Source: a virus
Length of the DNA stretch: 64,000 bases
Virus record (IMG/VR): IMGVR_UViG_3300023049_000005
Coordinates: 199,053 to 263,052 of that record
Strand: one strand, 5' to 3'
Made by a program: the position numbers and the translations under genes. Shown here piece after piece: positions 11,538-56,500 of the stretch; within the stretch, counting starts at the first letter, position 1, and every line of letters begins with the position of its first letter. Under the pieces are notes generated by a model, which saw only the letters and a list, made by a program, of their open reading frames with translations, did not search any database and was not told where the DNA came from.

Positions 11538-11757
11538 CTTCTAAAATTTGATTGATTTTAATATCTCTTATTTCTGCTTTGTTTATGAACCTATTCACAT
11601 TATAATAATGTGGTTCACCATAATCATCTTCTACTTTAATTGTATTAGTAGATTCACCTACGTCTAGACAATCGTATTCCTTTAACTTAGTTAAGTATAC
11701 GTTTGCCCATATCACACAAATAACTTTACTTCCTTTCTCTATTTTACTTCCTAGCAT
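11527..11757 (-). CDS. hypothetical protein, 76 aa
   Basis: The small strand-rich protein (KGSKVICVIWANVY, YDCLDVGESTNTIKVEDDYGE) may form a compact beta barrel. It leads the two-gene minus operon. A TAATATATA box on this strand lies 6 nt upstream of its ATG, inside the same palindromic AT stretch that serves the divergent gene at 11774. Function unknown. Confidence 0.6.
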   Translation of the reverse strand: MLGSKIEKGSKVICVIWANVYLTKLKEYDCLDVGESTNTIKVEDDYGEPHYYNVNRFINKAEIRDIKINQILEDEQ

Positions 11758-30742: not shown

Positions 30743-31017
30743 ACACCTAAATCTTCTATGAATTCATCACGACTCATCGCTTTTTTATAGGTATCGTATC
30801 CTGGAATTAAGGGAAAGTCTACATAGGTATAAACCTCTTTATACTTTGTTCCAAAGAAGTCATATATACGTATTCTACGCAAATCAACCTTTCCTTTTTT
30901 CATAGCAAAAAGAATTTTCAATACCTTATCATATGACTTCACATGATGTTTCTCTTGATGTTCTTTACCATCTTTGTCTTTGTAGATAAATACTGCGTCA
31001 AAAAATTTAGTTTCCAT
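30739..31017 (-). CDS. hypothetical protein, 92 aa
   Basis: The short protein (METKFFDAVFIYKDKDGKEHQ) has beta-hairpin character at its start and a Tyr-rich second half. It is the first gene of a two-gene minus operon with a host-type -7 box 19 nt upstream of the ATG. No domain recognised. Confidence 0.6.
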   Translation of the reverse strand: METKFFDAVFIYKDKDGKEHQEKHHVKSYDKVLKILFAMKKGKVDLRRIRIYDFFGTKYKEVYTYVDFPLIPGYDTYKKAMSRDEFIEDLGV

Positions 31018-31062: not shown

Positions 31063-33492
31063 ATGAAATTTATTTTACAGAAAGAAAATTTACAACAAGC
31101 AAGAAGTATATTAAAAAAATTAGATATCACAGAAGATGATGTTAGATTCAAAGACCTCAAAGAATATTACGAAGAAAGATTAGGTAATAATTGGGGGTAT
31201 TTTGGTTTCTTAACTAATCTTATTTTTAAACAAGGTGAGCATTTAAGTTCAGTTAAAAAGTTAATAGATTTCATTGTTGATGATAAAGATATCATAAAGA
31301 GTTTACCAAAAAACATAATTAAATATACTAGTATAGAAAAGATATCAGATGATATTACTATACAATTGGAATGGAGAAAATACAGACAAGAATTCGTCAA
31401 TGAACTTTCGGGTAAAATAAAAACACTAGCTAAAAAAGATGAAGATCTTAAAAACGAATACATTAATAGTGATGAAAATACTAAGAAAGATATTTTACAA
31501 AATTTCATTCCTAAAATAGCTAGATATACGGACTATAGAAAATTTAAATCAGATCTAAAATCATTTTTGAATAAAACAGATGATATCGAAACCATTATTA
31601 AAGATATTAAGAATCAAGAACACGCATATTTAGTATACAACGAAAATAATGTTGTTATAGCGGAAATATATAAATATGAAGCATCTTGTAAATTAGGATC
31701 TAAAGCATGGTGTATATCTACGGAAAAATTCCATTGGAATGATTATGTCAGTGGTATGAATAAACAATATTTTATTTGGAATTTAAATGTTCCTAAATCA
31801 AGTAATGAAAGTCAAGTAGGTGTTACAATAAAGGAAGATGGTACAGTAAGAACTGCTCATTATAAAAATGACAAAAGAGCATCTATTGAATTATATTTAA
31901 CTAAATATAATATACCCACCGAAGTACTTACTCCTATTGATATAAATAAAGATTTTAGTAAATTAGAAAAAGCAGACCGTTTAGATGAAGGCGTATTCAC
32001 TAATCTGATAAAAAGTGATAACAAAGAACTTATTAAAAAATATTACGATATTATACCAAATAGATTAAAGATTAAATATAATTTATATAATGAAGAAGAA
32101 TTAAGTAAAATGAATTTATCTGATACTACTAAAGAAGTACTTAGTTCGGATAACAGTAAGATTAAAAGAATAGTTAATTATCTAAGTCTTGAAGAAATTC
32201 TTAATTCTGAGGAAAGAAAATTCGTCGATAAGATGACATTCGTCGATAAAATATATTTTCTTAAAAAAGCGATGACACTTAATTTAGACTACGGTAGTGA
32301 TTTCCATGAATCTAATATAACAGAAAAGTTGTTTCCTAATACTGATGTATATACCATAGACTTTGATGAAGAATTAATTTATGTTAAAGGGGAGGAGAAA
32401 GATCAATTTTTTGATGAATTTCTTGGTATGTATACTGAGACATACCATCATTTAAATTCTATCACTACACATAGTAGTATGTATAGTGATACAGAGGAAA
32501 TTAATTTTTGTTATAATGCTCTAACGTCTGACCAAGGGTTAGAATTTATGGAAGTTTTAGAGTTCTTAGAAAAGAATTCATACCACGAAAAACTAAAAGA
32601 ATATTTCACAAAATTTATTAAGACGTATACTGATAATAATGGGATTGAATATTATGACGTTGAATCATTTTTCTTAAAAGTAGGTTTAAAAGAAGTGTTC
32701 GAAGTATTAGAATTATGTTCTAGTGCAATAGAAGAAGGCGCAGATCAATATATCTCAGAAGATATGCAATTATTTTCTGACCTAGAAAATAAGTTTGATT
32801 TTGATAGTTTTAATATCGGAATAGGTATTCCAATAGATTTAATTATTGATTCATTTGATGATAAGGAATTAACAGACGAAGGTTTTGATTATGATAATTG
32901 GGTTAATAACACTCCGTTATCTAATCAAGTTCCTGCATTTAATTCAGAAGAGGGAACTTATGAATATTATAGTATGGCTCAAGTATCAGAAGAATATAAA
33001 GAAAAAATTGATAATCAATTAGAAAAATTAACAAGTGATCTTGAATTTGAATTAGCTGAATTTTTAGAAATGAATAACGAAAAAGTACATAATGCTTTAA
33101 TTGACAATGGATATGTTGGTGATACAGAAAGTGGTTGGCAATATGAAGAATTCTTTTTTTATAGAAAAACCAAAGGTGATATAGTTAGTATCATACCAAT
33201 AGAAAGTATCATAGAAAACGGTAATGCCGTAATGTACATAATGGAAACTAAAGTTTTTAAGGAAGAATTACGCATTCTTAAAAATATAAATATAGTTACT
33301 GATGGTAGTGAGGAAAAACCAAATAGATGGGGGAGTAGTGAAAAAGAGCTTAATAGTAAAAACATCAATGTTAAACAGATTAACATCTTTGATCGCTTTG
33401 AAGAAAGAACTAAAGACCCTAACCAACTTAGTCTATTTGAAGAAAAGTTAATAATTAATTTCAAAAAGTTTAAACAAAGGAAGAGTATTTAA
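31063..33492 (+). CDS. WC-domain protein, 809 aa
   Basis: This is the second member of the WC family. Its N-terminus KENLQQARSILKK and the segment LPKNIIKYTSIEKISDDI (81-98) match the 1345-residue member at 53509. The WC domain has LGSKAWCIS (211-219), QYFIWNLNVP and SQVGVTIKEDG followed by an AHYK strand. The C-terminal 450 residues are acidic and helical, ending with the 'NQLSLFEE' stretch. The start is fixed by a promoter box 4 nt upstream. Family members are probably virion-associated; the activity is unknown. Confidence 0.65.
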   Translation: MKFILQKENLQQARSILKKLDITEDDVRFKDLKEYYEERLGNNWGYFGFLTNLIFKQGEHLSSVKKLIDFIVDDKDIIKSLPKNIIKYTSIEKISDDITIQLEWRKYRQEFVNELSGKIKTLAKKDEDLKNEYINSDENTKKDILQNFIPKIARYTDYRKFKSDLKSFLNKTDDIETIIKDIKNQEHAYLVYNENNVVIAEIYKYEASCKLGSKAWCISTEKFHWNDYVSGMNKQYFIWNLNVPKSSNESQVGVTIKEDGTVRTAHYKNDKRASIELYLTKYNIPTEVLTPIDINKDFSKLEKADRLDEGVFTNLIKSDNKELIKKYYDIIPNRLKIKYNLYNEEELSKMNLSDTTKEVLSSDNSKIKRIVNYLSLEEILNSEERKFVDKMTFVDKIYFLKKAMTLNLDYGSDFHESNITEKLFPNTDVYTIDFDEELIYVKGEEKDQFFDEFLGMYTETYHHLNSITTHSSMYSDTEEINFCYNALTSDQGLEFMEVLEFLEKNSYHEKLKEYFTKFIKTYTDNNGIEYYDVESFFLKVGLKEVFEVLELCSSAIEEGADQYISEDMQLFSDLENKFDFDSFNIGIGIPIDLIIDSFDDKELTDEGFDYDNWVNNTPLSNQVPAFNSEEGTYEYYSMAQVSEEYKEKIDNQLEKLTSDLEFELAEFLEMNNEKVHNALIDNGYVGDTESGWQYEEFFFYRKTKGDIVSIIPIESIIENGNAVMYIMETKVFKEELRILKNINIVTDGSEEKPNRWGSSEKELNSKNINVKQINIFDRFEERTKDPNQLSLFEEKLIINFKKFKQRKSI

Positions 33493-34792: not shown

Positions 34793-37700
34793 ATGAGTAA
34801 CAGTATTCAAGAAACATATAGTTCAGCACTAGTAAACTATTCAGAGCCTAGAACAATTAACGGTGTACATTACACGAGGTTTTACACAGAATTCAACACT
34901 GAATTGTCTGTAGGTGATTTCGTGTATATCTTAAATGGTAATTATGATAATACTGATTTACTTAACATCAACGAATATCAACAAGGAACAACGGGCTATG
35001 AAGTATTAGAGATCGATAGAAATTCGATAACTTTAGATATCTTATATAGAGATGAAGATCCGTGGAACGAAGACCCATTCGCTGATTATACTAAAGTATA
35101 TTTAGTTGATAATATCCAAAAATTTAATTATGAAAATATAGATAACTCGTTTGGTTTCGAAGGTCAAAGTGGGGATAAATACAGTATATTTAATAACAAT
35201 GTTTTCTTATCTCAAATAGAGGATATGGAATATACCCAAGAAACAGGAACTAACCAAAGATTTTTTAAGTCTTTCTTTGATCCCGAACGTACTTTAGGTA
35301 TGGTCGATATGAGAGGACAATTATTTAATGATTCCACGGAATTAAAATTCGATCTAGAAGAACTAACCGAATATAGTTTAGTTGAGCCTAACGGGGCATC
35401 AGGTAGTACATATGCTAGGTTTTCTAGTGGGCAGAATAATATAAGAGATTTTGATATAGTAACACAAGTTGATTATAGTACAGATGAAATAATAGAGAGA
35501 TTAATATCACTTAACTCATCTAATTCAGCTACTAATACAGTCAATTTATGGACACTTAATAAAAACACATTAGATGGTATAGGTGATGTTACACTAAGAA
35601 ATAGTTTAAATACAGAAGATGTGAGTGCTAATATAGTATCCCCTTTTATTAAAAAAGACGGATTGGGGGCATTTTCGGGTAGTCTTATTGATATTAGATT
35701 ACCGAAATATTCAGGTAGTACATATAATTATATAAGTTCTCAATCAGGGGGTGCTATATTAGGTAATACTTCAAGAACTTATACACTTAGAGATATAAAT
35801 CAAACAGTAATAGTGGGATATGATGATCCTACTTTTGAAAACAATTATAGAGCATTTGGTTTTTATAATTCTTCGGATCTATTGTCTGATAAATTTATAT
35901 CACCTGATTCACAGGATGATAGTTGGACAATTGCTAACGGTCAGGGATATATAGACGGTAATACACAGTCTACTCCATATTTTGCTTTGTCGTCAGGTTT
36001 AACAGGGTCTTATAATTATACAGGCGACTTTGTTTTCCCACAACGACAAATTGGAGGATTTAGGGTATATGGAAATATAGTACCACCATACGCAGAATAT
36101 AGTGGTATAGGTAGAGCAGTTCAAATAGAAACAAATACGTGGAATAATTCAGTAGAGGATTCTACACACCATGAGTTAGTTTTTGCGGGAACAGGACTTA
36201 CATCATCAGTCGATCCATTACAAGGAGGTGCTTATTTTTATTCATATGGAGGCGTTTGGCGTGATTATGATAGTATCTATAATGGTAATAAAATGTTAGG
36301 TAATGCGTTTGAGCTTTCTAAAACAACTTTTGATGAATATAAAACAGGGAGTTGGTCACAGTCTAGTTTTAACCCATTTGGTGATTTTGATGATTACCCG
36401 TTCGCAGATTTAAAAGATATTAAATTCTTAGGATACGAGAAGAAAGATTTTGGATTAAATATCTATTATGATAGTGCAGGTACACCTGTTAATACGTTTT
36501 CGGCTCTTACTTTTGCTTTACCTACTTTCGGTGGTATTGGTGGTGGTGAAACTTTTGCTTTACCATCGGAATTCGAATCTAATGGAGTATATTATTCTAG
36601 GTACTTAGTAATTACTGAAAGTGGTACTTCTTATATAATAAATTTATTATTTAACAGTGTTCTTTTAGCGGTAAATACTGATTTCTTAACTGATATGCAG
36701 AATGGATTACCACAAGTACATGTAGTAATACAAGAAATAGACACTGATCTTAGCCAACCAACAGAAATCGGAGTGCAAAGGAATTTAAACGTTTTTGATT
36801 TCCCTGAATTAATAGGGGGGGATTATCCAATTGTGTCTATATACGGAACACATTCTTATTATGATCCTATAAGCGGAACATTTTCGGGGTTTGACTTTAG
36901 TGATATTAATATAAGTACTATTGATTTTAGTGACCAAAGATGGCTAATAGGTAGCTCTGAACTAAGCCCAAGGTTAAGTAATTCTTCTCTTTTATCAACA
37001 GATGCAAACCAAGGTGTTTATGTTTTTGATAGATCAATAAATGATACTACTTATGAGTTTAGTATAACAACAACTACTGAATTTGATACAGGTGATACTT
37101 TACCTTCAAACAAAATATATAAAATATTAGGAGAGGTTATAAATAATAAGAGAAGAGTTTGGGTAGCTACGAACACAGGTCTATTTATGTTTGATTATGA
37201 TCTAGCATATACTTTTGATTATTATTTTAGAGTAAATTTTGATGATAATGAAATAGAACTAGATGAATCATTATATAAGAATGACAGACTTTATGTGATG
37301 GAAGAATTCACGTATGATGGAAGATTATTCGAAAAAGATAAAATATATCGTCATTTAAAAGACGAAAAAAGATGGGTAAGGGATACTACATACGAAAGAT
37401 CGTATTTAACTAAAGCTCACATGAAAGATGGTACTATATTAGAAGGTGTCTTCAATGATGGTATCTTCGGTAATAAAAACACTGTTGCAAATTGGGAAGG
37501 GGCTACTTGGAGAAATGGGATAGTTTATAATGTGGATTGGGATAGTGGTACAATGAGTTCTAAATCTGATATTATATTAAGACAAAATTATTATGCTACG
37601 TTAGATAATAGCAAAGTTAAGATAAGTACTGATTTTACTAACAATGAAGGATATGGTTATAATTTAGTTAATTTCTCTACACTTAAAACGGGTGATGTCT

Positions 37701-40700
37701 TAAATGGAACAATATTAAATACAACAATTGGGTTAACTGTAAGTAGTAGATTATTGGATGATACGTATAATGGATTATCGTTTAGTTATAACGATTTAGA
37801 AATTGTTAGATCTAAGATAGAAAATTCTACTACGAATGCGATACAACTTGGTAATTCTATGGTTAGTAGATCAGATCTAAATTCTACTTTTGTTAATGAT
37901 GCTCAATTGATTAATAATAATGTATATGATAGTATAATAAATGATGCAACAATAGAAAACCAAGGTAATATTAAGATATTAGGATACGAAAAATGGTTTA
38001 ATATCAGAACTAAAACGGAACAACAGGATATATTACAAATTCATAAATTCTTTATTAACGAAAAGGATTTTAGTAAGTTATCATATGAAGATTGGGTAGT
38101 TTTCAATAACGTGCAGTTAAGTAATAATAACCCGTCTAACATACTCGATAGACTGTTCTATGTCTTAGGTGGAGCTGATGGATATTACCAAGATGTATAT
38201 GAAGATTTAAATAGAATATTTAATAATAAGTATAGAGAGAATAATTTTAAGATATTTATTTCTAAACGATTAGAAACACAGAATAGACAAAGAACTAATA
38301 TTAGATATAATGGTGTTCAGTTAGTTGTAGATACTGCAGAGAACGAAAGTCCTATGTATTCTATTGATTTAAATATAGTAACTAATGAAATACCATATAA
38401 TTCTGATTCGAGTATTTATTTAAATGCTTTAGAAAATGATGGTATACTTAAAGTAAATGCTACTAATATAAGTAAAGCGGTTTTACAGAATTACCATTTT
38501 AAAAATAGTTGGATTAATGGTGGTACTTGGTTAAATGGTTCTATGATACAACCTGATCAGTTAAATAGTTTATATAATTATGGGTCAGTTTCTTCTACCA
38601 CTAATAGTGTTACAGTTGATTTATATGATAATAATTATGAGATAAAGTCTTCTGATATACTTGATAATGAAGTTGTACATATAAATAACATATGGGATAG
38701 TAATTTCTTAACGTATAGTGGTGGTGATTTTATGATCGTATCAGGAACAACATCAAGAGTTTTAGAACCGTATGGTGATTTCGCAACAAACGCAACACTA
38801 TCTGTTCCTATGAGTCAATATACTACACTTAATTTAAATAGAATTGACGGAGTAAATAATAATTTATCAATTGTAAGTGGTGTATTTAAGAACCAAAGTT
38901 TTTCTAATTTAAGTATACAAAACGAAGAATTAGATGTAAGAAATTTAAATTATCAGAATATTAGAAACTTAATGGTTATAAATTCTGAAATCACAAAGAG
39001 AGATAATTTAGAGATACAAGATATATTCTTAGGATATGGACATGTCTCAAATGACTTTACTAGCAAAGAAGAATTTGGTTTAGATCTTATATCATATAAA
39101 CAAACATTAACAAACGTAAATGTTTTTGATGGTATAGTTACTAAGTCTGCTTTCATATCAGGTACATTCTCTGATGGTATATTTACTAATAATCGTTACA
39201 GAGATATCAATGATTTGATTCCTATTAACAATAGAACCTATGCACCAACACAAAGTGCTGTGATATCTTCATGGCATTTCGGTAATTTCCTAAACGGGGA
39301 AGTTTCTGATTCAACTTGGTTGAATGGTACATTCTCTAATGGAATATTCTTAAATAGTGAATTCTTAGGTGGTATTTGGTCAAATGGTGAGTTTGGTGAT
39401 ATATCAGGTAGACCAACTCTTAACTTATTTAGAAAGGGGTTGTGGTTAAATGGTGCTTTTAATAATGGAATATTTGGCGATGATGATAAAGAAGTTGGTA
39501 CGATAAATAGTATTTATACTAATAATAAGTATATTTTAGAAAGTAATATTTATACTAAAGAAGGAACAAATATATGGGAGAAAGGTAATTTCAACAATGG
39601 TGTTTTAACTTCTATTAATAATAATGTAACAATATGGAGAGACGGTAAATTTAACAATGGTAAAGTAAGTGGGTCTGTTATTTGGTATGATGGTATATTT
39701 AATAACGGTAAATATAGTTCTAGATACGGTAGACAAGTAGCTAACGTAGCAGGTGAAGTGGATTTATTAAGTCTTGCGGATAGTTCATTAGCAGACGGAT
39801 CGAGAACATTAAACTTAAATGGTATAACAGCTTCTTTCCCCTTCTTAGATCAATATAGTATTGCTTCTATTAGAGATATCAATGCTAATAATCCAAACCT
39901 ATTTGATAACGCAGGAACGATTGTTCTTGATACTAGTGATAATCAATTAAAGTTCGGTTATGTTTCTTCTACTACAAGTAATACAGTGCTTGATCCATTT
40001 GATACTAACTTATCTTCACATGGTTTCACTGAAAAGGCTGCTGATGATTTCTTTACGGGTACTATATCAAATTTATATATGCAGTTCAAACCATTAGATT
40101 ACGAAGCAATTGGGACAAGTGTACACCCACTTAAAAATGCTAACATATTAGGTGCTAAGATATTCGTTCAAGATACTTCAAATGAATATATTTATGATGG
40201 ATCAAGTTATGTTACTCAATCTAATTTCTTATCTGCTACAATAAGTGGCACATCGTTAACATTCAGTAGTTATTATTCTTGGAGAAATGGTGTATTCAAT
40301 AACGGTGAATTTGGATTAGCGGATAATCCAAATAATATAAACCCATCATGGGAAAACGGTACTTTCAACGGTGGTGTTTTTAATGGTAAAGTTTGGAAAA
40401 ATGGAACATTCGTAAAGGGTAAATTTAATGGTTCGGGTACAAATCAGTTACAAACTAGTAGTACAAATATATTTAAGGGTTATGACCCACAAGCAAGTAT
40501 AGAAGAATATATCGATGATTATAGTCTATCTTTTATAGCAGCACAAAACCAAGGACAAGGATCATATAAAGTTATTTTAGATAAATATGATTGGTATGGT
40601 GTGTGGTTAAATGGTGAGGTTTCACCAAATATTAGTGGACTTAGTGTTGTTTTATCTAATTTAGAAAGCGCAGTATCTAACGTAACACCCAATTTAAGTT

Positions 40701-43700
40701 TTGGGTTAGAATCCGCATTTGCTCCTTCTGCTACTAACACATCTGTTTCCAATGCTCTTTCTAATAATTCAGGTTTATTGACAAACACATCAGTTCTTTC
40801 TAGTCCTGTTAGAGAAAATATACTTGTTGAATATTTCAACGAAGATAAATATAATAGAAGAATTAATAAAAGACCCATATTCGATAAAATGATATGGGTA
40901 AACGGTATATTTAATAACGCAGACGGAGAATTTAATGAAAGTGTTTGGCTTAGTGGTACTATGAAAAACGGTACATTTAGAAATTCTATGTTCAACCCAT
41001 ATGTACAAAGATGGGATTTCGAAACAGGTGATTTAAATAATATAGAATTTAAATTTGACTTAGATACTGAGAACACTATATGGGAGAACGGAACATTTGA
41101 TAGTGGTATATTCTTTTTCTCTGATTGGGAGAACGGAACATTCGAAAATGGTGTAATGATGGGTGGTAACTTTAAGGCAGGTAGAGCTAATTATATGTCT
41201 GCATATTCTTCTATTTGGGAAGGTGGTAGATTTAGAAATGGTAATTGGTTCGGGTCTAACTTTACGTTTGATAATATTTACAACGATCCATCTATACCCA
41301 ATCCTTTTGAGTACTTACGTAATTATTTTGCTAATGTTCAATTTGCTCCTTTCGTAACAGATATTTTAGGTAATAATAGTAAGAGATTACAGGATGATAG
41401 ATTACATATATGGAATATAATAGAAGGTGATATTACTAATAGTGTTTATAATATAACAGGTCATAGTTTTGGTACTGATAGTGGATCACAAATAATCAAT
41501 AACGGAACAGTAGATGTGAATAACACATACAGCTTTACTGATATATCAACTAGCCCCGCATCGGGTATATATAGATTGGAATTAAGTATATCACAAACAC
41601 CAATTGTTTTCTCTACATATGACTATATTGTGAATTTCACATTAGTTGACCAAAAGAGATATGATGAAGGGGTGTACGAAATTACTTTTTATACCGATGG
41701 TAATATTTGGAGTCCTATTCCAATAGTAAACAGCACGGTGTTTGAATTATATGCTGATATATACGAAAACGGTATATTAATCGAACCTGATGTATTACTA
41801 AAACAAATCCCAATAGGTAGTTATAAGAATGTTAGGAAAACCTTTGAGGTATTAGAAAATCAAGAATATGTACTTAAAATAGAAGCCCGAATGAGTGTAG
41901 ATAATGGTACTTACACGGAGAGTTATTACTTAGCAATAGAAGAAGTAGTGGCTGAGGTTGTTTACTCAAATAAAAATAATGATCTAGAAGGGTCAATAGA
42001 ATTAAATTGGGAAGGTTCATACTTAAATTCTACTGCTTCGACTGCTAGTGCTTCATTAACTTATACAAATACATTAAGTTTAGAAGATACTATTCGTTAT
42101 ACAGGTTTAGATGTATCTACTATAAGTATACCTACTGTATATAAAGATTATTCAAGTGCGTATTCTCAATTTGGAAACGGTACTTTCCAATCAGGTATAT
42201 TTGAAAACGGAATATGGAACAACGGATATAGGGGAACAGAATACGGTCTTTATATAATAGAAGACGGTGATGTTTATCCTGGGGCGACATTAAGTTATGT
42301 TCATTTGGGTGGTTCTTCGTCTATAGTAGAAACTAATCCATTATATAGCGATGTCCCTCAAGTTAAATATAGAACAGAACCAATTGTGTATTTTAACAGA
42401 GTACAAAGAAGCTTTAAAGTAGGAAGAAGAAGATGGAGATTCGTTTTAGAAAGTGCTTTTGATATTGATGCTGCTAATAATACAGAAGAATATAATAGAT
42501 TAAGAGTAAGTGATCAAGTGTCTATTTCTAATATAATAGCAATAGATATTAATGGTAATAGAAAATTAATTAAAGATGTATTTAGAATAATTAGAATACC
42601 AAGTAGAACTAGAATAGTAGTAGAGTATCAAGAAACTTTCCCTATCGATAGTATCCAAATAGATAGCGATAGACACTTAATTGCGGTTAGTAAAAACGTA
42701 TGGTTTAATGGTGCTTTCTTAAATGGGTATTTTAAAGGTAATATGATAAACGGATTTGTTAGAGGAAATAGAAATATCACCAAGATAGAAGACTCTCAAT
42801 TAATAGACGTTGACTTCCAAGGTGGGCATTTTGTGAGTAAGAAATACACACTTAGTAGTATATTCGATACAAGAACATCCAATTCGTTAAGTTTATCTCC
42901 ACAATTCACAGAGAAATATAATAGCTTATATCATAGTGGATTAATACAAAATATGACATTCGATGATGATGTTACTTTAACCAATTATGGGTTATATTCC
43001 ACAGAAGGAGTAAAAATAAACGGAAATGGGATTGGTGATCCTAAGAATGTAACTTTTGGTGCTACGGCAGTTTCGGAAGCACTTCAATATATCTATAATA
43101 GTGACATGGATCTAGTGTATGAACCTGAATATTATAGTAGTGTATTTAACCAAAATATTATCAATACACATGCTATAAACGAATTGGAAATTGGTGAGTT
43201 CATCCCCACTAAACTATATAACATACCTGCGGGTTATATTACTTATGATGTATTAAATAGTGTATCTAATTTTAAATATTCGACTGAGCCAAATAACATT
43301 GAGGGGGTAATAGAATATAAATTAAGTTTAGGATCTAAATATAAAATATTTAATGATTTATTTAATGTTGATTTTTCACAAAGTCCAAATAATGATCCTG
43401 ATATAGATGCACCATCTACTTTTAATATAGTGGAATCAGCAACATATGGTATATTCAGACAAGGATCTATATCTAATGGTATCAATTTTAACCAACTAGA
43501 ATCACAATTTATACACGAAGACTTTATGTATATATTTGATACTAGTAGTAATGTTACAGAAAAAATAACAGGGAACAATACGTTTAAACTTAGAAATAGA
43601 TATCACTTAGTAGAAGTAGATGTAGAATTTACTAATAAAACAGTACCCAATCCTTATGTTATAACTAATACCGTTACTATAGGCACTACATATAGTTATG

Positions 43701-44365
43701 GTACATTCTCACTACCTAAATTAAGTATAGGGCAAGCCTATAACGAATATTTTGAAAATATTAATTTAGGTGGAACAAGTGGTTATATATCATCTTATGA
43801 TAATGATATGGTCGGATTTATTGATGGGACAAAATTAAGTGAGATAAATAATTTTGGAAATATTGGTGATACTAAACGATTAACCATGAAGTCATTTATG
43901 TATAATAACTTTGGTGGGTATAGAGATTCAGTGAGAGTTATAGAAAAGGGCTTTAATGTTGATATAGGTTCAACCAGTAGCGAATATACAGTTAATTCTC
44001 CAATTTATTATAAATTTAATCATTATGAGATAGATAAAATTCCTTTTTATGATTATAGAAGTTATATTGATCCATTAAGTGGTGAGGTAACAGATTGGAA
44101 TATGTTAGCAAACCAAGATCAAACTAGAAAAATAGATGATAGGATTAAAACACCTTTCTATGCTTCTTCTGTTCCTATTAATTATCAAGACTCTAATTTT
44201 GTATTAACTGATAATATAAATTTCTTAGGTGGTTCTAATATAACAGGTAATGTGATTATTGAAGAAGTAGATACATTATCAACAGCTACTATACAAGAAT
44301 TATTAGATTTACTTGCTGCTAATAAACAATTTAATTTTGGTGGTGGTGGTCCTCAATCATTATAA
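34793..44365 (+). CDS. giant structural protein, 3190 aa, with WxNGxFxNGxF repeats
   Basis: This single gene fills 15% of the window. The first 850 residues are Ser/Thr/Gly/Asp-rich beta structure. From about residue 876 to 2660, clusters of MORN-like repeats of the form W-x-N-G-x-F-x-N-G-x-F recur, for example DSTWLNGTFSNGIF (near 1502), SWENGTFNGGVF (near 1853) and TIWENGTFDSGIF (near 2096). Other stretches between clusters carry conserved Tyr/Asn-rich folds. There is no signal peptide or membrane span. It ends in QFNFGGGGPQSL. I infer a long tail or baseplate structural protein, possibly a tail fibre or decoration spanning the particle. A strong terminator follows. Confidence 0.6.
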   Translation: MSNSIQETYSSALVNYSEPRTINGVHYTRFYTEFNTELSVGDFVYILNGNYDNTDLLNINEYQQGTTGYEVLEIDRNSITLDILYRDEDPWNEDPFADYTKVYLVDNIQKFNYENIDNSFGFEGQSGDKYSIFNNNVFLSQIEDMEYTQETGTNQRFFKSFFDPERTLGMVDMRGQLFNDSTELKFDLEELTEYSLVEPNGASGSTYARFSSGQNNIRDFDIVTQVDYSTDEIIERLISLNSSNSATNTVNLWTLNKNTLDGIGDVTLRNSLNTEDVSANIVSPFIKKDGLGAFSGSLIDIRLPKYSGSTYNYISSQSGGAILGNTSRTYTLRDINQTVIVGYDDPTFENNYRAFGFYNSSDLLSDKFISPDSQDDSWTIANGQGYIDGNTQSTPYFALSSGLTGSYNYTGDFVFPQRQIGGFRVYGNIVPPYAEYSGIGRAVQIETNTWNNSVEDSTHHELVFAGTGLTSSVDPLQGGAYFYSYGGVWRDYDSIYNGNKMLGNAFELSKTTFDEYKTGSWSQSSFNPFGDFDDYPFADLKDIKFLGYEKKDFGLNIYYDSAGTPVNTFSALTFALPTFGGIGGGETFALPSEFESNGVYYSRYLVITESGTSYIINLLFNSVLLAVNTDFLTDMQNGLPQVHVVIQEIDTDLSQPTEIGVQRNLNVFDFPELIGGDYPIVSIYGTHSYYDPISGTFSGFDFSDINISTIDFSDQRWLIGSSELSPRLSNSSLLSTDANQGVYVFDRSINDTTYEFSITTTTEFDTGDTLPSNKIYKILGEVINNKRRVWVATNTGLFMFDYDLAYTFDYYFRVNFDDNEIELDESLYKNDRLYVMEEFTYDGRLFEKDKIYRHLKDEKRWVRDTTYERSYLTKAHMKDGTILEGVFNDGIFGNKNTVANWEGATWRNGIVYNVDWDSGTMSSKSDIILRQNYYATLDNSKVKISTDFTNNEGYGYNLVNFSTLKTGDVLNGTILNTTIGLTVSSRLLDDTYNGLSFSYNDLEIVRSKIENSTTNAIQLGNSMVSRSDLNSTFVNDAQLINNNVYDSIINDATIENQGNIKILGYEKWFNIRTKTEQQDILQIHKFFINEKDFSKLSYEDWVVFNNVQLSNNNPSNILDRLFYVLGGADGYYQDVYEDLNRIFNNKYRENNFKIFISKRLETQNRQRTNIRYNGVQLVVDTAENESPMYSIDLNIVTNEIPYNSDSSIYLNALENDGILKVNATNISKAVLQNYHFKNSWINGGTWLNGSMIQPDQLNSLYNYGSVSSTTNSVTVDLYDNNYEIKSSDILDNEVVHINNIWDSNFLTYSGGDFMIVSGTTSRVLEPYGDFATNATLSVPMSQYTTLNLNRIDGVNNNLSIVSGVFKNQSFSNLSIQNEELDVRNLNYQNIRNLMVINSEITKRDNLEIQDIFLGYGHVSNDFTSKEEFGLDLISYKQTLTNVNVFDGIVTKSAFISGTFSDGIFTNNRYRDINDLIPINNRTYAPTQSAVISSWHFGNFLNGEVSDSTWLNGTFSNGIFLNSEFLGGIWSNGEFGDISGRPTLNLFRKGLWLNGAFNNGIFGDDDKEVGTINSIYTNNKYILESNIYTKEGTNIWEKGNFNNGVLTSINNNVTIWRDGKFNNGKVSGSVIWYDGIFNNGKYSSRYGRQVANVAGEVDLLSLADSSLADGSRTLNLNGITASFPFLDQYSIASIRDINANNPNLFDNAGTIVLDTSDNQLKFGYVSSTTSNTVLDPFDTNLSSHGFTEKAADDFFTGTISNLYMQFKPLDYEAIGTSVHPLKNANILGAKIFVQDTSNEYIYDGSSYVTQSNFLSATISGTSLTFSSYYSWRNGVFNNGEFGLADNPNNINPSWENGTFNGGVFNGKVWKNGTFVKGKFNGSGTNQLQTSSTNIFKGYDPQASIEEYIDDYSLSFIAAQNQGQGSYKVILDKYDWYGVWLNGEVSPNISGLSVVLSNLESAVSNVTPNLSFGLESAFAPSATNTSVSNALSNNSGLLTNTSVLSSPVRENILVEYFNEDKYNRRINKRPIFDKMIWVNGIFNNADGEFNESVWLSGTMKNGTFRNSMFNPYVQRWDFETGDLNNIEFKFDLDTENTIWENGTFDSGIFFFSDWENGTFENGVMMGGNFKAGRANYMSAYSSIWEGGRFRNGNWFGSNFTFDNIYNDPSIPNPFEYLRNYFANVQFAPFVTDILGNNSKRLQDDRLHIWNIIEGDITNSVYNITGHSFGTDSGSQIINNGTVDVNNTYSFTDISTSPASGIYRLELSISQTPIVFSTYDYIVNFTLVDQKRYDEGVYEITFYTDGNIWSPIPIVNSTVFELYADIYENGILIEPDVLLKQIPIGSYKNVRKTFEVLENQEYVLKIEARMSVDNGTYTESYYLAIEEVVAEVVYSNKNNDLEGSIELNWEGSYLNSTASTASASLTYTNTLSLEDTIRYTGLDVSTISIPTVYKDYSSAYSQFGNGTFQSGIFENGIWNNGYRGTEYGLYIIEDGDVYPGATLSYVHLGGSSSIVETNPLYSDVPQVKYRTEPIVYFNRVQRSFKVGRRRWRFVLESAFDIDAANNTEEYNRLRVSDQVSISNIIAIDINGNRKLIKDVFRIIRIPSRTRIVVEYQETFPIDSIQIDSDRHLIAVSKNVWFNGAFLNGYFKGNMINGFVRGNRNITKIEDSQLIDVDFQGGHFVSKKYTLSSIFDTRTSNSLSLSPQFTEKYNSLYHSGLIQNMTFDDDVTLTNYGLYSTEGVKINGNGIGDPKNVTFGATAVSEALQYIYNSDMDLVYEPEYYSSVFNQNIINTHAINELEIGEFIPTKLYNIPAGYITYDVLNSVSNFKYSTEPNNIEGVIEYKLSLGSKYKIFNDLFNVDFSQSPNNDPDIDAPSTFNIVESATYGIFRQGSISNGINFNQLESQFIHEDFMYIFDTSSNVTEKITGNNTFKLRNRYHLVEVDVEFTNKTVPNPYVITNTVTIGTTYSYGTFSLPKLSIGQAYNEYFENINLGGTSGYISSYDNDMVGFIDGTKLSEINNFGNIGDTKRLTMKSFMYNNFGGYRDSVRVIEKGFNVDIGSTSSEYTVNSPIYYKFNHYEIDKIPFYDYRSYIDPLSGEVTDWNMLANQDQTRKIDDRIKTPFYASSVPINYQDSNFVLTDNINFLGGSNITGNVIIEEVDTLSTATIQELLDLLAANKQFNFGGGGPQSL

Positions 44366-44369
44366 AAAA

Positions 44370-44403
44370 AAAGGGGGGATAGTTAAAAACATATCCCCCC
44401 TTT
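44370..44403. terminator. strong bidirectional terminator
   Basis: AAAGGGGGGATA and TATCCCCCCTTT form a perfect 12-bp stem around a 10-nt loop. A-run on the left and T-run on the right let it work from both sides, between convergent genes ending at 44365 and 44424. Confidence 0.85.
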
Positions 44404-44423: not shown

Positions 44424-45158
44424 CTATTGTTTGATAAACTGTTTCGTCAATGTCTTTCCATCTTTGTTCAACATTAATATATAATTACCTCTAGTTAAAG
44501 AAGTAACATCGATTCTGTTGTTATTTAAATTACCTTGTTTAACCATACTACCATTGATATTAAATACACTAAAGGTAGCGTTAGAAACATCATTACTAAC
44601 ATTCAAATAGTCAGTAGTTGGATTAGGATAAATTGTAAAAGAAAGTGATTCTTTCTCAAAGCTATTATCATTAATACCTGTAGTAATACTACTTACAAAA
44701 ATAGTATCTACTGTGTGTATAATATCAACATCAACTTGATATCTACCTGCAAAAACAGTATTACTAATATTAAAATCTAATACATCACCTGATTTTAATA
44801 TTAAACTATCTTTAACTACATTAAATAGAGACATATTATTACCACTAGTGATGGTCGTAGAATTTGTATCAATAGTGAAATTATAACCGCCTCTTATATG
44901 GGTTAAGGAAAAACTCACTTTATATGAGTTATAAGTAGTAGGTATAGTTTCACTATACAGTGTAACTGCAGCCCTCATGTTCTGAACTCCACTATTATAA
45001 GCATATAGTGTATCAACTTTAGAGCTATCTTGTGTATAGTTATTGATGTTTGTATCATTAACTACCATTTGATTTGATACATCGAAAAACACAGTATCCT
45101 GAGCGTTCAATGTCGTTGCAAATAATGCAACTATTAAGATTGAGATTAACTTTTTCAT
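44424..45158 (-). CDS. secreted protein with type IX secretion C-terminal sorting domain
   Basis: The 244-residue protein begins MKKLISILIVALFATTLNAQ, a signal peptide with cleavage before Gln20. Residues about 25-165 form an all-beta domain without a known match. The last 75 residues are a classic type A sorting domain: SFTIYPNPTTDYLNVS, then FNINGSMVKQGNL, IDVTSLTRGNYILML and the final KTLTKQFIKQ. Such domains direct export through the host T9SS and are often removed at the surface. It has a host-type promoter with both boxes, so it is probably made early and placed on the cell surface. It may block adsorption of other phages. Confidence 0.9.
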   Translation of the reverse strand: MKKLISILIVALFATTLNAQDTVFFDVSNQMVVNDTNINNYTQDSSKVDTLYAYNSGVQNMRAAVTLYSETIPTTYNSYKVSFSLTHIRGGYNFTIDTNSTTITSGNNMSLFNVVKDSLILKSGDVLDFNISNTVFAGRYQVDVDIIHTVDTIFVSSITTGINDNSFEKESLSFTIYPNPTTDYLNVSNDVSNATFSVFNINGSMVKQGNLNNNRIDVTSLTRGNYILMLNKDGKTLTKQFIKQ

Positions 45159-45193: not shown

Positions 45194-45223
45194 CAAATAT
45201 ACGAATACTTTTTAAATAAACAA
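45194..45223 (-). promoter_or_regulatory. Bacteroidota-type promoter, -33 TTG and -7 TATATTTG
   Basis: On the minus strand TTG (45221-45223) and TATATTTG (45194-45201) are 19 nt apart, and the T9SS cargo gene starts 35 nt downstream. A second TATATTTG at 45277-45284 on the same strand may be a tandem promoter. Confidence 0.65.
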
Positions 45224-45318
45224 GCTTTTCTGTAAAAAAAATTATTCTTATATTAAATCCTTGTTTTAGTTCAGCACAAATATAAGAAAACTTTTATATA
45301 CAATCAACTATAATTAAT

Positions 45319-46717: not shown

Positions 46718-47482
46718 ATGAGATTTGTAAAAAAATATGATAAATTCTTAGAAAGTTATTCAGAAGATATCGATGAAGTAATGGATGATAAAGATAACGA
46801 ATACGTTCTAATAGAAAATGGTGAAGTAAACTCAGCGTTTGAAACAGTAGAAACAGCATTCGAATACTTAGCTGATATGTTAGAAGACAAAAAGCAATTA
46901 GATATTGATCAAAAAGAAGAATTTTTAGAAATCACTAAAGAAGAATTGGGTAAACTAGATTCTGAAATCATATTACAAGAAGAGATAGATTTCGTATTAA
47001 ACTTCATATTAGATCGTTTTAATATAGTAGAACCTTTTGAAATCAAAGCTAGAATAGAAATAGAAGATACTCCAATAGATGATACTATCGATACAGAACT
47101 AGAAGAACTATTAGGAGAAAGTAAAGAATATTTAATATTCTCATCTGATGGGAAAGAATTAGATGGTTTTGATAGTAAAGAAGAAGCAGATGATTTTAAA
47201 GAAGAATATGATAAAGTCTATAACAGTTGTAAAGTAGTTCATAAAGATGATATGATTAAAGAATCTGTTTTATCCGAGAGAGGTTGTGATTGTGAAGATT
47301 GTGAATGCCATAAAACAGGATTGTGTTCATGTGGATCAGATTGTAGTTGTACTAAATGTAAGTTAATTAAAGTACATATGCGTCATTGTAACCAAGGAGA
47401 TTTTGAAGATTCTTGTAAGTATGGTGATCCTAATTGCCCTATGTTAAACCAAGAGCAAGAAGAAGATACTTTTTCAAAGTAA
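46718..47482 (+). CDS. acidic capsid-targeting-like protein with Cys-rich C-terminal module
   Basis: The 254-residue protein begins MRFVKKYDKFLESYSED, one of the clearest members of the recurring set. Residues 20-180 are strongly acidic and helical. After about residue 185 comes a dense Cys module (CDCEDCECHKTG, then CSCGSDCSCTKC) with nine Cys in about 30 residues and three more near the end, like a metallothionein or iron-sulfur site. A packaged acidic protein with a metal cluster is unusual. Its stop overlaps that of the convergent patatin gene by 9 nt. Confidence 0.7.
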   Translation: MRFVKKYDKFLESYSEDIDEVMDDKDNEYVLIENGEVNSAFETVETAFEYLADMLEDKKQLDIDQKEEFLEITKEELGKLDSEIILQEEIDFVLNFILDRFNIVEPFEIKARIEIEDTPIDDTIDTELEELLGESKEYLIFSSDGKELDGFDSKEEADDFKEEYDKVYNSCKVVHKDDMIKESVLSERGCDCEDCECHKTGLCSCGSDCSCTKCKLIKVHMRHCNQGDFEDSCKYGDPNCPMLNQEQEEDTFSK

Positions 47483-48412
47483 TTCGTAACTATTATTCTT
47501 ACCGTCAATTAAATAAGAGACACATTCTTTATTCTCTGCATATTTATACCCCGCTTCCCACCATTTTTCGGATAACTCTTTATCAAATATTAAAGCATTA
47601 TTAGTAAGTCTTTTATTTAAGTAATGAAAGTTTATTTGTATTTTCTTAGTAGCATGATGTGCTAAATACCCTATGTCAATTTGATGATCTTTAATTTTAT
47701 TCATCATTAGTAATAGTAATTTTATCTGATAATGTAATATATTTCTAATATGCTCAATAGCCCAATCTGTTTTTTCTTTATCTAGTACGATTACATCTAT
47801 TATATCATTCTTATCCAAGATAGCTTGTTTAATTGGAACTTGTGTTGAAACACCACCATCAGTATAATGACATCCGTTTATTTCAGGTAAACTCATAAAA
47901 GGAGGCGCACAAGTAGATGCCCACATCCAATCACAAAATTCTTCATAGGTATAATCCTTTAAATCCTTTTCTTCAGGCATACCTGTTGACATATTAGTAA
48001 CTACGATCAATATTTTTTTACCACTGTTGATCAGATCAATATAATTATCTTTTGTGAAAAATTTAGGAATTGTGTGTGTCCTTAACTTTGTAGTATCCCC
48101 CAAAGCAATCTGTTTATTGATAATAATATTCTTAAATATATTCCAATAGTTTACACCATAGATATAAATACCATTACTTTGTTTTTCGATTTTAAACGGA
48201 TTAATTGAGAATATATCATCCATTGTAATAGATGAAAACGCTGTCTTTAATTTGTTGTAATTATTAGTAGCCGCAAAAGGAATTAAAAGAGATCCTATAG
48301 ATGAACCATATAAATTATCATAAGTTATTCCGTTTCTAATATAATATTCTATAATCCCACCTGCGTAAGCTCCCTTAGACCCACCGACACTTATAACTAG
48401 ACCTCTCTTCAT
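47474..48412 (-). CDS. patatin-like phospholipase
   Basis: The 312-residue protein has the full patatin active site: oxyanion loop GGSKGAYAGG (10-19), GSSIGS (36-41) with the nucleophile Ser38, and TDGGVSTQVPI with the catalytic Asp185. The core is complete; the C-terminal 90 residues are helical and aromatic. It should hydrolyse membrane phospholipids at the ester bond. No signal peptide is present, so it acts from the cytoplasm, perhaps in lysis or membrane remodelling. A palindromic AT box overlaps the upstream terminator region. Confidence 0.87.
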   Translation of the reverse strand: MKRGLVISVGGSKGAYAGGIIEYYIRNGITYDNLYGSSIGSLLIPFAATNNYNKLKTAFSSITMDDIFSINPFKIEKQSNGIYIYGVNYWNIFKNIIINKQIALGDTTKLRTHTIPKFFTKDNYIDLINSGKKILIVVTNMSTGMPEEKDLKDYTYEEFCDWMWASTCAPPFMSLPEINGCHYTDGGVSTQVPIKQAILDKNDIIDVIVLDKEKTDWAIEHIRNILHYQIKLLLLMMNKIKDHQIDIGYLAHHATKKIQINFHYLNKRLTNNALIFDKELSEKWWEAGYKYAENKECVSYLIDGKNNSYELL

Positions 48413-49237: not shown

Positions 49238-49687
49238 TTAGTTGTGTTTAATATCTCTTTCTGCTTGTCGATCAATGTCTTTACTTTTAATAGAATCTTT
49301 CTTATCATATAATTTCTTACCCTTACCAACCCCAATTTCTAATTTAGCCCAATTGTTAACGATCAGTAATTTAATAGGAATTAATGAATATCCTTTTTCT
49401 TCTATTTTTTTAGTTATCTTCTTAATCTCTTGTTTAGTAAGTAATAGTTTCCTCTCTCTTGTTTCATCGTGTTTTTCACCAAACTTATACTCTTTGATAT
49501 ACATATTCTTAACATATATTTCCCCGTCATTAATTATACAGAAAGACTCTTTGATAGAGCATGATCCTTCCCTAACACTTTTTATTTCAGTACCTAATAT
49601 TCTAAGACCTGCAACAAAAGTTTCCCCTATCTCATAATTGAAATAAGCTTTCTTATTGTTTACTATTGTTTCTATTTTCTTTGACAT
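49238..49687 (-). CDS. smpB: SsrA-binding protein SmpB
   Basis: From the ATG at 49687 the protein has 149 residues, normal for SmpB. It starts MSKKIETIVNNKKAYFNYEI and contains GLRILGTEIKSVREGSCSIKES, YIKEYKFGEKHDETRERKLLL and the ring-binding segment VGKGKKLYDKKDSIKSKDIDRQ near the end. SmpB carries tmRNA to stalled ribosomes. The positively charged C-terminal tail is present. No tmRNA gene was seen in the window. A phage copy could steer trans-translation during infection. The longer frame to 49711 would begin in the upstream gene. Confidence 0.93.
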   Translation of the reverse strand: MSKKIETIVNNKKAYFNYEIGETFVAGLRILGTEIKSVREGSCSIKESFCIINDGEIYVKNMYIKEYKFGEKHDETRERKLLLTKQEIKKITKKIEEKGYSLIPIKLLIVNNWAKLEIGVGKGKKLYDKKDSIKSKDIDRQAERDIKHN

Positions 49688-49697
49688 ATTAATATAG

Positions 49698-50018
49698 TTA
49701 AATGCTATCAATAAGTTTATCTCTGAGTTCAGCTTTAATTAAGTTTACTATTTTTTCTTTATTTCTTCTATATAAGTAAACAGTAATAGTTTCTAATTTG
49801 AAATCATTCAGATCTAATTTTTCTAAATCTAATATGATATAACGCAAAAATCCATCAGGTGATACTCTCCTTTCATGATAAGCATTACCCTTTAATAAAG
49901 ATCTATCTTGATATAATAATTTCTTCATTAGTTTTTCATTACCAATAGAATTACCTTCCTTGTCTTTTAATATACTAGGATTATTTAGTAAATCTCTTAT
50001 TACTATAAAGTCGCTCAT
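49698..50018 (-). CDS. ELRD-tail family protein A, 106 aa
   Basis: The protein starts MSDFIVIRDLLNNPSILK and ends LIKAELRDKLIDSI. The next upstream gene starts MNFILIKDIYNNPTIVK and ends TIELRDSFIDSL, so the two are tandem paralogs. A third copy lies at 53056 and a decayed one at 53459. The fold seems alpha/beta with no known motif. It overlaps the neighbour by 4 nt and precedes smpB by 10 nt. Function unknown. Confidence 0.65.
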   Translation of the reverse strand: MSDFIVIRDLLNNPSILKDKEGNSIGNEKLMKKLLYQDRSLLKGNAYHERRVSPDGFLRYIILDLEKLDLNDFKLETITVYLYRRNKEKIVNLIKAELRDKLIDSI

Positions 50019-50332
50019 AAGCTATCAATAAAAGAATCCCTCAATTCAATAGTAACCATCTTCTTTATTTCTTCATTGTCTATAAAGATATAATCAATTA
50101 TATCAATATCAGACATCATAATAAATTTTTGATTTAAATCGATAACTAAGTATTTATTTATATAATATTCAATAATTTGACCATGTTTTATAACATCATC
50201 AATACCGAAATGAGTTCCGCTATCATATTGAATTAATCTCTTTATAAAATCAATATTACCCCTATTCTCATTGTTTTTATACTTAACAATAGTTGGGTTA
50301 TTATATATATCCTTAATCAGAATAAAATTCAT
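50015..50332 (-). CDS. ELRD-tail family protein B, 105 aa
   Basis: This is the paralog and coupled upstream neighbour of the 49698 gene, sharing the start FILIKDIYNNPTIVK-type segment and the ELRDSFIDSL tail. The ATG is exactly 4 nt after a minus-strand TATCTTTG box, placing it in the predicted leaderless early class. It therefore heads an early operon that reaches smpB. Function unknown. Confidence 0.65.
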   Translation of the reverse strand: MNFILIKDIYNNPTIVKYKNNENRGNIDFIKRLIQYDSGTHFGIDDVIKHGQIIEYYINKYLVIDLNQKFIMMSDIDIIDYIFIDNEEIKKMVTIELRDSFIDSL

Positions 50333-53055: not shown

Positions 53056-53457
53056 ATGTATGTAATACTTACTATAAACCTTCAAGATGATACATTAGTA
53101 TATTACTTTGATAATACACAGGGTAGTATTCTTGTAAACGAAACTTATGTGAAGTCTTTCATAGGTGATATAGAATCTACAAAAGCTGTGATAGAATCTG
53201 CGGATGCCGTAACTGATGACGGTTTATTAATAAGAACAACCCCTGCTATTATATTTACTGATGATTCTATATCTTGTATAGCTATCAATAAAGAAGGTAC
53301 GAGAGCAACACACCTTATCGTAGAAATAAAAGAAGGATACGAAAACCGATTTGATTTAATTCATAAATATGTATCATTATCTGATGAAAGTCTTAAGAAT
53401 ATTGTATCTAAAATAAGAACTGAATTAAGGGATTGTTTAATAGATAAACTGATCTAA
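53056..53457 (+). CDS. ELRD-tail family protein C, 133 aa
   Basis: The protein (MYVILTINLQDDTLVYYFDN) is strand-rich and ends NIVSKIRTELRDCLIDKLI, related in its tail to the pair at 49698-50332. It starts 1 nt after the CCA-adding-like gene. In-frame bases just after its stop encode another ELRD tail, described separately. No known domain. Confidence 0.6.
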   Translation: MYVILTINLQDDTLVYYFDNTQGSILVNETYVKSFIGDIESTKAVIESADAVTDDGLLIRTTPAIIFTDDSISCIAINKEGTRATHLIVEIKEGYENRFDLIHKYVSLSDESLKNIVSKIRTELRDCLIDKLI

Positions 53458-53458
53458 T

Positions 53459-53532
53459 ATGTATATTTTATAACAAATAGAATTAAAGTAGAGTTAAGAG
53501 ATAGAGCTTTAAATTCTGTTACCCCAAATTGA
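53459..53532 (+). pseudogene. decayed remnant of an ELRD-tail paralog
   Basis: Bases 53459-53470 read ATG-TAT-ATT-TTA (MYIL), like the start of the 53056 gene, but end at a TAA. In the frame of the preceding gene, 53476-53517 encodes NRIKVELRDRALNS, a clear relative of its KIRTELRDCLID tail. Start and tail survive with the middle lost, so this looks like a deletion remnant. It overlaps the 3' end of the 53509 gene. Confidence 0.45.
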
Positions 53533-56500
53533 ATCGGCTTTAGGTGTTCCTCTGTAAGCACCAACCTCAAATTTAAATGGTTCGCCTTTCAGATTAACTT
53601 CTAATTCGTGTGGTAATTGTTTAAAGGTCTCAATAGATTTATTAGTATCTATTTGGTTAGGTTTTAAATACCCCTTAATTATATAAGGTAATTCCCCTTC
53701 TGTCTCTTCTAACGAATCATAGAAGTTGGATAATTGATCAAATTCTAAACACCAATGCTCACCTAGTTCTTTATCATCCAAATCAGATATATTATCTAAG
53801 AATACTAATCGATATACTTCACCACCTTTTTTATTTAAGGTTTTAATCATATTGTTATAGTATTCCCATTCTTCTTCGGCTCTATCACCATCTTCGAATT
53901 CACTTATAAACCTTTGGTCTAATTCTTCTTTAATGAAGTCTGAATATTTTAATACAACAGATTCATTAGCTTCTCTAGGTATAAATTCATATAACCTATC
54001 GTTTAATCTTTCATTATAGTCTTCATAATCATTATCATCAAAAGAAACATAATTATTGTCACCTGAATCGGGGCTAAATTTTCCTTCCGCTTCTGTATAA
54101 GCATTAAACATATTAGATACTTCAAATTCTTCTAATCCACTATAATCTCTTAGATTACTTAAGAAGTATTCGTTATCACACATTTCCCATATATCGGGAA
54201 TCACTTCAATGCCACCGTTAGTATATTTTATTAAACTATTATTTTTGAAATATTTTAATATTTTGTCTAATTCATTAATAGTATTATCAAACCATTTTGA
54301 TCCTTGTGCATCTGCCTCAGTTTGACTATATGCTCCATTAATTGCGTCTATTATCTGATCTGCTTCGAAATCATCATAAAAATCTTCATCCTCTGTTTCA
54401 TAATCTTCCTTTAAAACTGATTCTATATCATTTCTTAATTGTCTTAATTCTGCGTCCTCGCTGTATAACTCTTGTGATTTTTTATAACTATAACTTGATT
54501 CTGTGTATTTATCAATAGCTGAGGTATTTATGTCTAATCCATCACTTTTTATTATAGATATTATATCTCTTAAATTATGAACTGTAATCTCATCAAATAT
54601 ACCACTTTCTTCAAAATAATTAAAATCATTATGCCACGCATCAAACATATCATAATAATTCTCTAAAGAAAAGTTCATACCACTACTATCATATAGATCC
54701 TCTAAATCAGATAATGTTGTTTCGTATACCCACGCTTCTTCTTCCTTATCATAACTCATACCAATATTTTCATAAAAGACTTTGTTGTATTTAGTATCAT
54801 GGTATGCTAAAGATAGTAGAGCAAAACTATTACCTTCTTCTAAATATTTCTCTAATAATTCTTCATTATTTGCTATACTATATCCTATTAGTTTAACTAC
54901 GTCTAAGTCCTCTGTATGGTCTTCATAATATAGTTTGTCACATAAAGTATCCATACTAGTTTCATTTAAATATTTTACAATTTGTGTATCTAATCCTATA
55001 TTATTTTTATTATACTTACTAAGGATAACTTCGTCTTTTTCGCCTGCCCAAGTAGTTAATACTCTATGTAGATTATCTGAGATATAATCTAACTGATCTT
55101 CTTCATCATCATTTACCATTAAATATTCCCTTTTAATTAATCTATCATATTTATTGAAAAAAGAATAATAATCACCAAATGTTTCAAATGTTTTAACTTC
55201 ATCAAATAATAACTCTAATAATTCACCTAAGAACATCTCTATTTCTTTTTCGAAATCATTTACAGTAGGTTTAGAAGGCATCTTGTTATAGATGTCAGAT
55301 TGGTTAAAATATTTTTTCATTCCGTTAAGACCAACTTCTTTGTTATTAATCATATCATCTATCTGTTCTTGTATTTTAGGAAAATCATTAATGTCTTTTA
55401 TGTTAACAATATTATCTTCTACTACTAATTTTCTTAACTGTCTAGCACTAGCATTAGACTTTACCATTTTAAGAATCACTATAATAGTAAATAGTTCTTT
55501 AATATTATATTCTTCTTTTTTGTGTGCTTGTAATACCATACTTAGATCCAATACTAACCAAGAGAATATATACTCATTAGAGATTACATAATTTAATAAT
55601 TCTTCTGTTTCTGATATAGCTTTAAGATCGGTTATAACTTTTGTTATAACTTTCCTATCTATCTTAAATTCATTAGATACGTCTCTGATATATGGATAAA
55701 CTTCTTTATCTAACTTATTTATCTGTTTAATAATTCTATTTATCTCAGTTAAATCTTCTTTGTTTGATAGATACTCAGCTAATGGTTTTGTTAATTCCTT
55801 TGAGGCTATTAAGTAAAACATATCCTTATCGAATAATTTAACCGCTTCTTCTGTTTTAATTAACATAGATAAGAATTTAGGTAACTCTCTACTATTGGCT
55901 ACTTGTTCAATGTTTAACATTTTCTCATATTGTTCAGATGTCAATAATTTCATATCTTCTCTGAACTCTAAGGACACAACAGACTTTTCATAAACTTCAT
56001 AAAGTTTACTGTTTCCTTTTTCTAAAATATCATAAAACGCTTCGAAGTTTCTTTTACTTAACATATTATATGATGATACATATATCTCTTGTCTAGGTGA
56101 ATCAACTACTCCCGACTTTGTAACAAAGTCTATTAGTATTAAGTAACCACCATTATTCCCTGTTAAATATTCTAATATCCTTTGTTCTAAATTAGAGCTA
56201 AAATAAAAATATGATAATACTAGTTCTAAGAATTCAACACCTATCTCTTCTGTAACTTTATGTGCGCTTATTATTTCGTATGTGTTGAATATACTTTTTA
56301 AACTTTTACCCTTAGATTCAAATCCTAAGGCATTAAAAAACAATGCTGCGTCTGTTGCGTTTTCTAATTCCTTTAAACCTTTCAATAATCCAATTAAATC
56401 ATTATAATAGAATAAAGAATTGAATAATACTTTACTGTCTTGATTATCCTCTTGGAAATATTTAAGGCTTTCTTTTGGTATGTTCACTTCTATGTCACCT

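Follow-up and report, generated by a model that had tools for sequence, protein, structure and literature searches.

Gliding Bacteroidota owe much of their cell surface to the type IX secretion system (T9SS). In Cryophage, T9SS type A domains are encoded by three variable genes, for which its authors suggest superinfection exclusion or competition (Bellas et al. 2020, PMC7468147), and a 2019 study found T9SS sorting-domain proteins near crAss-BACON open reading frames (ORFs) on phage contigs (PMC6949934). Because of these reports, phage-encoded T9SS cargo with a suggested exclusion role, the central idea of a first-pass annotation of the locus described here, is already published and known in kind. 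A receptor blocker made in the infected cell is known from llp of phages T5 and BF23; the gene adjoins the receptor-binding gene, and the two phages have nonhomologous but equivalent versions (PMC4728585). The huge-phage paper states that surface-localized proteins may affect infection by other phages, and its main text contains neither the word T9SS nor the word secretion (PMC7162821).

The gene examined here, P0001, lies in a window of 64,000 nucleotides, bases 199053 to 263052 of the 270,756-bp virus record IMGVR_UViG_3300023049_000005. It resembles the Cryophage genes in that a type A sorting domain is attached to variable cargo on a phage-encoded protein, but the passengers of the three Cryophage genes are endoglucanase, GH39, and PA14 domains (PMC7468147), whereas here there is one small gene with an unmatched passenger. 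Unlike Cryophage, the phage is a Mahaphage relative, and the gene lies beside a giant tail-like gene with a promoter and terminator of its own. The sorting domains of the crAss-BACON study lie near head genes of gut phage contigs, and the accessible part of that report describes no conservation of promoter or position (PMC6949934). Like Llp, and like Cor of T1-like phages, P0001 would be a small exported protein, and like llp, it has exchangeable versions in related phages; the gene next to it has a putative role in receptor binding. Llp and Cor, however, are lipoproteins of the outer membrane with FhuA or BtuB as their targets, whereas sequence inspection found no lipobox in P0001 (there is no Cys at the predicted cleavage site), and it would use the T9SS. 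The signal peptide and a C-terminal domain with YPNP, G-x-Y, and terminal lysines are shared with bacterial type A cargo, e.g., NucA and RemZ of F. johnsoniae, but P0001 is phage encoded, and the nearest host cargo mostly has far larger passengers. A recurrent, independently promoted T9SS module linked to a presumed tail gene in huge phages was not found described in the literature searched.

Phage identity and distribution of sorting domains

Genes for a head maturation protease, major capsid protein, large terminase, and tail sheath are in the record outside the window, and those for a baseplate-hub relative and a head-tail adaptor are within it. The terminase is 38 to 45% identical to those of LR745206, LR756502, LR756504, and LR756501, and the capsid protein is 48 to 58% identical. 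The record is a real jumbo myovirus, nearest by these two proteins to genomes of 634 to 735 kb that their authors assign to the Mahaphage clade, with predicted Bacteroidetes hosts (PMC7162821); compared with these kin, the 270,756-bp record may be a fragment. That the host has a T9SS is an assumption drawn from the relatives of the phage. A PorV search of the record gave no match, but it also gave none in control genomes and so carries no weight.

All five huge phages nearest in capsid and terminase (LR745206, LR756502, LR756504, LR756501, and LR756500) have at least one sorting domain above the cutoff. None above the cutoff was found in 12 other phages examined (four Prevotella Lak genomes, Tenacibaculum PTm1 and pT24, Chryseobacterium MA9V-2, Flavobacterium MaF61, Cellulophaga phi40:1 and phi14:2, crAss001, and Sphingomonas PAU). 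At least one above the cutoff was present anywhere in the record in 8 of 26 IMG/VR contigs encoding a relative of the giant protein next to P0001. In this small sample, T9SS cargo characterizes this group and not Bacteroidota phages at large. Further T9SS-tagged genes lie elsewhere in huge phages (L025, L028, L062, L071, and L075, from LR756501, LR756504, and IMGVR_UViG_3300023174_000033), and one 464-kb contig has four sorting domains above the cutoff.

A predicted T9SS cargo gene

The ORF proposed in the annotation proved exact in its positions and lies on the minus strand (Table 1). By inspection and a hydrophobicity scan, the product begins with the signal peptide that had been claimed to end before Gln; it reads MKKLISILIVALFATTLNA|Q, with an LNA|Q cut, and is typical of Bacteroidota. 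The claimed type A sorting domain is full length and at the extreme C terminus, and all of the quoted motifs are present (YPNPTTDYLNVS, GSMVKQGNL, TSLTRGNYIL, and terminal KQFIKQ). The suggested profile search matched residues 176 to 244 above both cutoffs, with 47.6 bits for TIGR04183 (cutoff, 23; E value, 1.2e-12; all 72 model positions) and 51.6 bits for PF18962 (cutoff, 27; E value, 1.1e-13). By sequence comparison, the domain also matched the solved T9SS entries 8glk_D (E value, 3.5e-4) and 8glj_D (E value, 0.004); 8GLK is cited in the F. johnsoniae translocon paper (PMC10994853). It is the sole TIGR04183 match in the record. A lysine close to the C terminus is near-invariant in T9SS type A cargo, and its role has been described (PMC10994853); P0001 has K239 and K243, and the end-most lysine column is invariant in alignments A2 and A6. 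On these sequence features, we predict with high confidence that P0001 is T9SS cargo.

Table 1. Predicted features at the P0001 locus (window coordinates)
Feature	Position	Strand	Basis or remarks
3190-aa giant protein, convergent, with WxNGxFxxG-like repeats	34793..44365	+	Relatives adjoin cargo genes in LR745206, LR756502, and L048; near in L035
Intrinsic-terminator-like hairpin between the convergent genes	44370..44403	.	-20.9 kcal/mol in a 70-base stretch
T9SS cargo gene P0001	44424..45158	-	244-aa ORF; profile matches
T9SS type A C-terminal sorting domain, residues 176-244	44427..44633	-	TIGR04183, PF18962; solved relatives 8glk_D and 8glj_D
Passenger domain, about residues 20-165	44664..45101	-	No family match above cutoff
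Signal peptide, residues 1-19, predicted cut before Gln20	45102..45158	-	Inspection and hydrophobicity scan
Proximal Bacteroidota-type promoter, TTG-N19-TATATTTG	45194..45223	-	Pattern scan
Second, upstream Bacteroidota-type promoter, TTG-N20-TATATTTG	45277..45307	-	Pattern scan

A probable separate transcription unit

The host-type promoter claimed for the gene is present as two tandem Bacteroidota-type sites. With a spacing of 17 to 21 bases, the pattern occurs 17 times in the window, compared with 8.7 ± 3.1 times in simulated sequence. The full pattern starts 61 to 65 bases before the start codon in the window, L035 (G001), L048 (G014, a 508-kb IMG/VR contig), and LR745206; the cargo gene of LR756502 has only the downstream element, TAAATTTG, at -46. 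The full promoter is missing from most of the other T9SS-tagged genes examined in these phages; one in LR756504 (L028) has it. A terminator-like hairpin separates the cargo and giant genes in the window, L048, LR745206, and LR756502, and in the window its T run is oriented in the direction of the cargo gene. With two tandem promoters, an intrinsic terminator, and a tail-to-tail arrangement with the giant gene, P0001 would form a stand-alone unit. The promoters and hairpin support expression that relies on a host-type RNA polymerase and is separate from that of the giant gene.

Recurrence beside a giant gene

The neighboring gene is 9.6 kb long, its product contains many WxNGxFxxG-like repeats, and searches of Pfam and PHROGs gave no match to the protein. 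We take it to be a tail protein, with a putative role in host recognition. Only 58 bases separate it from P0001 in the window. The annotation had advised looking for homologues in other Bacteroidota phages; sorting-domain cargo genes were found in LR745206, LR756502, L048, and L035. In LR745206 and LR756502, a gene with a signal peptide and sorting domain is convergent with the giant-protein relative, 46 to 55 bases apart; in L048, the cargo gene is also convergent and lies 65 bases from the giant gene end. In L035, whose giant protein is the closest relative of that in the window (45% over 3192 columns), the distance is 1.9 kb, with small ORFs between. In most of the other IMG/VR contigs with a related giant protein, a DnaJ-like gene adjoins the giant gene and no cargo gene was found. 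At this one spot, the cargo gene thus recurs but is optional: it occurs at the same gene end in some relatives and is absent from most.

Given one to three sorting-domain genes in records of 150 to 640 kb, we estimate it to be very improbable that five such genes landed independently at the same gene end. The cargo-bearing giant proteins do not form one clade in the tail tree, in which those of the window and L035 pair at 100/100. The five syntenic sorting domains do not group in a domain tree that has too few columns to decide, and common descent of the cargo genes therefore rests on position and not on the tree.

The P0001 sorting domain is as near to Bacteroidota host domains (up to 45% identity) as to its phage counterparts (30 to 39%), and the record is metagenomic, as might be expected if host DNA had been wrongly joined to a phage contig. 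Such an artifact is scarcely credible, however, and we reject it: P0001 sits in the middle of the record, 58 bases away from a phage gene and flanked on either side by paralogous phage proteins; the same junction is found in two curated complete genomes and in the 508-kb contig; and its G+C content (0.286; GC3, 0.21) is close to that of the window (0.298) and of the giant gene (GC3, 0.18). The curated profile matches and the recurrence at one position in related huge phages together give good support to the annotation's reading of P0001 as a phage gene for cargo of the host T9SS.

Tight recurrent linkage to the giant gene would also be expected if the exported passenger acted as decoy for, or partner to, the phage's own tail protein, binding it in place of the receptor so that virions would not readsorb, or aiding maturation or release. 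This we consider rather improbable. A convergent gene that is separately promoted and terminated is unlike the layout expected of a virion part, and the signal peptide and T9SS tag would take the protein out of the cytoplasm, the site of virion assembly.

The exchangeable passenger

Pfam and NCBIfam gave no match above the cutoff for the P0001 passenger; no enzyme domain was detected in this small region, and the endoglucanase, GH39, and PA14 passengers known from Cryophage are absent from P0001 at the Pfam cutoffs. Defence-protein models did not match P0001, and two AlphaFold2 predictions of the passenger (pLDDT, 38 and 39) gave no confident fold. The T9SS-dependent surface endonuclease model NF052644 scored 35.5 bits against a cutoff of 260 and was rejected because the match vanishes when the passenger is searched alone. 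P0001 relatives were not found in viral and genome contigs by a scan that may omit records very near the window, and a scan with the megaphage version of the cargo found only itself.

The L048 cargo is a full-length relative of the versions in LR756502 (33% identity) and LR745206 (31%). P0001 has only the hinge and sorting domain in common with the cargo of L048 and LR745206, and only the sorting domain in common with that of L035. Passengers thus cannot be aligned between the window, L035, and the megaphage trio, while the hinge and/or sorting domain is kept. From these alignments, the passenger appears to have been replaced between lineages, with the signal peptide and sorting domain kept in all five phages. 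The megaphage passengers contain VGDTVxF and have a cupredoxin-like look, a candidate resemblance.

A vestigial or reused sorting domain, on a protein that is periplasmic or not exported by the T9SS, is conceivable insofar as the presence of a T9SS in the host is an assumption, but we judge it quite improbable. The domain is full length and intact, scores well above the cutoffs, has K239 and K243, and has been kept over deep divergence in five phages, all of which also have an intact signal peptide.

Proposed function

We propose the following for P0001. Host RNA polymerase would probably transcribe the single gene from the consensus Bacteroidota promoter, plausibly early in infection. Export by Sec would follow from the signal peptide, and the type A sorting domain would then route the product via SprA/PorV to the exterior. 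Once outside, the tag would be removed and the passenger anchored or released. Type A domains are known to dock onto PorV inside the SprA pore, after which cargo is either set free or joined to lipopolysaccharide of the cell surface (PMC10994853). The passenger would most likely occlude or alter the surface structure recognized by the neighboring giant tail protein, so that superinfection would be blocked and progeny would not readsorb to infected cells and debris. Secretion, timing, anchoring, and receptor blocking are steps that we infer, and the overall logic would be that of T5/BF23 Llp but with delivery via the T9SS.

Receptor masking fits the place of P0001 beside a tail-like gene, its own promoter, and its exchangeable passenger; counted against receptor blocking are the lack of a lipobox and of a cargo gene beside most giant-gene relatives. 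Mutations in gld and spr lead to phage resistance in F. columnare (PMC9233685), and T9SS-dependent surfaces therefore matter to phages. By analogy, superinfection exclusion would be the best explanation for the role of P0001. The signal peptide, sorting domain, promoter-like sites, terminator, giant-gene linkage, and passenger exchange on which this proposal builds are read from sequence. The full statement, that P0001 is T9SS cargo acting in receptor blocking or superinfection exclusion, is tentative and falls a little short of an even chance.

P0001 could instead be T9SS cargo that alters the infected cell for adhesion, aggregation, nutrient binding, or action on competing bacteria or grazers. 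An endoglucanase and a GH39 hydrolase are among the cargo of Cryophage (PMC7468147). In huge phages, some T9SS-tagged genes elsewhere in the genome encode large and diverse passengers, such as one with a FISUMP domain in LR756501. Neither the small passenger without a detectable enzyme domain nor the recurrent place beside one giant gene calls for such a purpose, and we hold it to be possible but unlikely.

Other features of the record

A shared C-terminal peptide of the type KRDxxIDxLL is within the last 18 residues of 29 of the 330 predicted proteins of the record, compared with 0.6 expected. Its carriers, seemingly unrelated small proteins, include those at 2672 to 2962, 11527 to 11757, 23377 to 23799, 30739 to 31017, 49698 to 50018, 50015 to 50332, and 53056 to 53457 of the window, with others in L003 and L004; the peptide is also visible in LR745206 and LR756502. 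It is perhaps a docking, targeting, or packaging tag.

A minus-strand tmRNA (L010:5538-5913, record positions 105538 to 105913; Rfam RF00023, 59.3 bits) and a minus-strand SmpB gene (window positions 49238 to 49711; 174.7 bits; cutoff, 130) form, by sequence, a complete-looking phage trans-translation pair. According to ARAGORN, the tmRNA tag is unusually long and ends in LAV. Beside the tmRNA is a gene for an SPFH/HflK-like protein with a lipoprotein-type signal (L010:4626-5456).

Large proteins of 601, 809, and 1345 aa (window positions 17416 to 19221, 31063 to 33492, and 53509 to 57546) all match one L035 protein and constitute a paralogous family, of which the one member tested had no Pfam match. 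The window also encodes a GlnII-like glutamine synthetase below the family cutoff (21416 to 22486) and a patatin-like phospholipase (47474 to 48412).

Significance

More broadly, huge Bacteroidota phages may carry a tail-linked cassette that pairs a tail adhesin with a T9SS-exported blocker under a host promoter of its own. The blocker would be exchanged along with host recognition, and the phage would use the type IX machine of its host to close the cell surface to competitors. We offer this as a doubtful but possible generalization. A phage shown to send its own protein through the T9SS would be an example of a virus using this machinery, and its protein would be the Bacteroidota equivalent of T5 Llp. 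In huge phages, the small tagged genes at the giant-gene end are few, short, and easy to express, and the question is therefore directly testable in laboratory flavobacteria.
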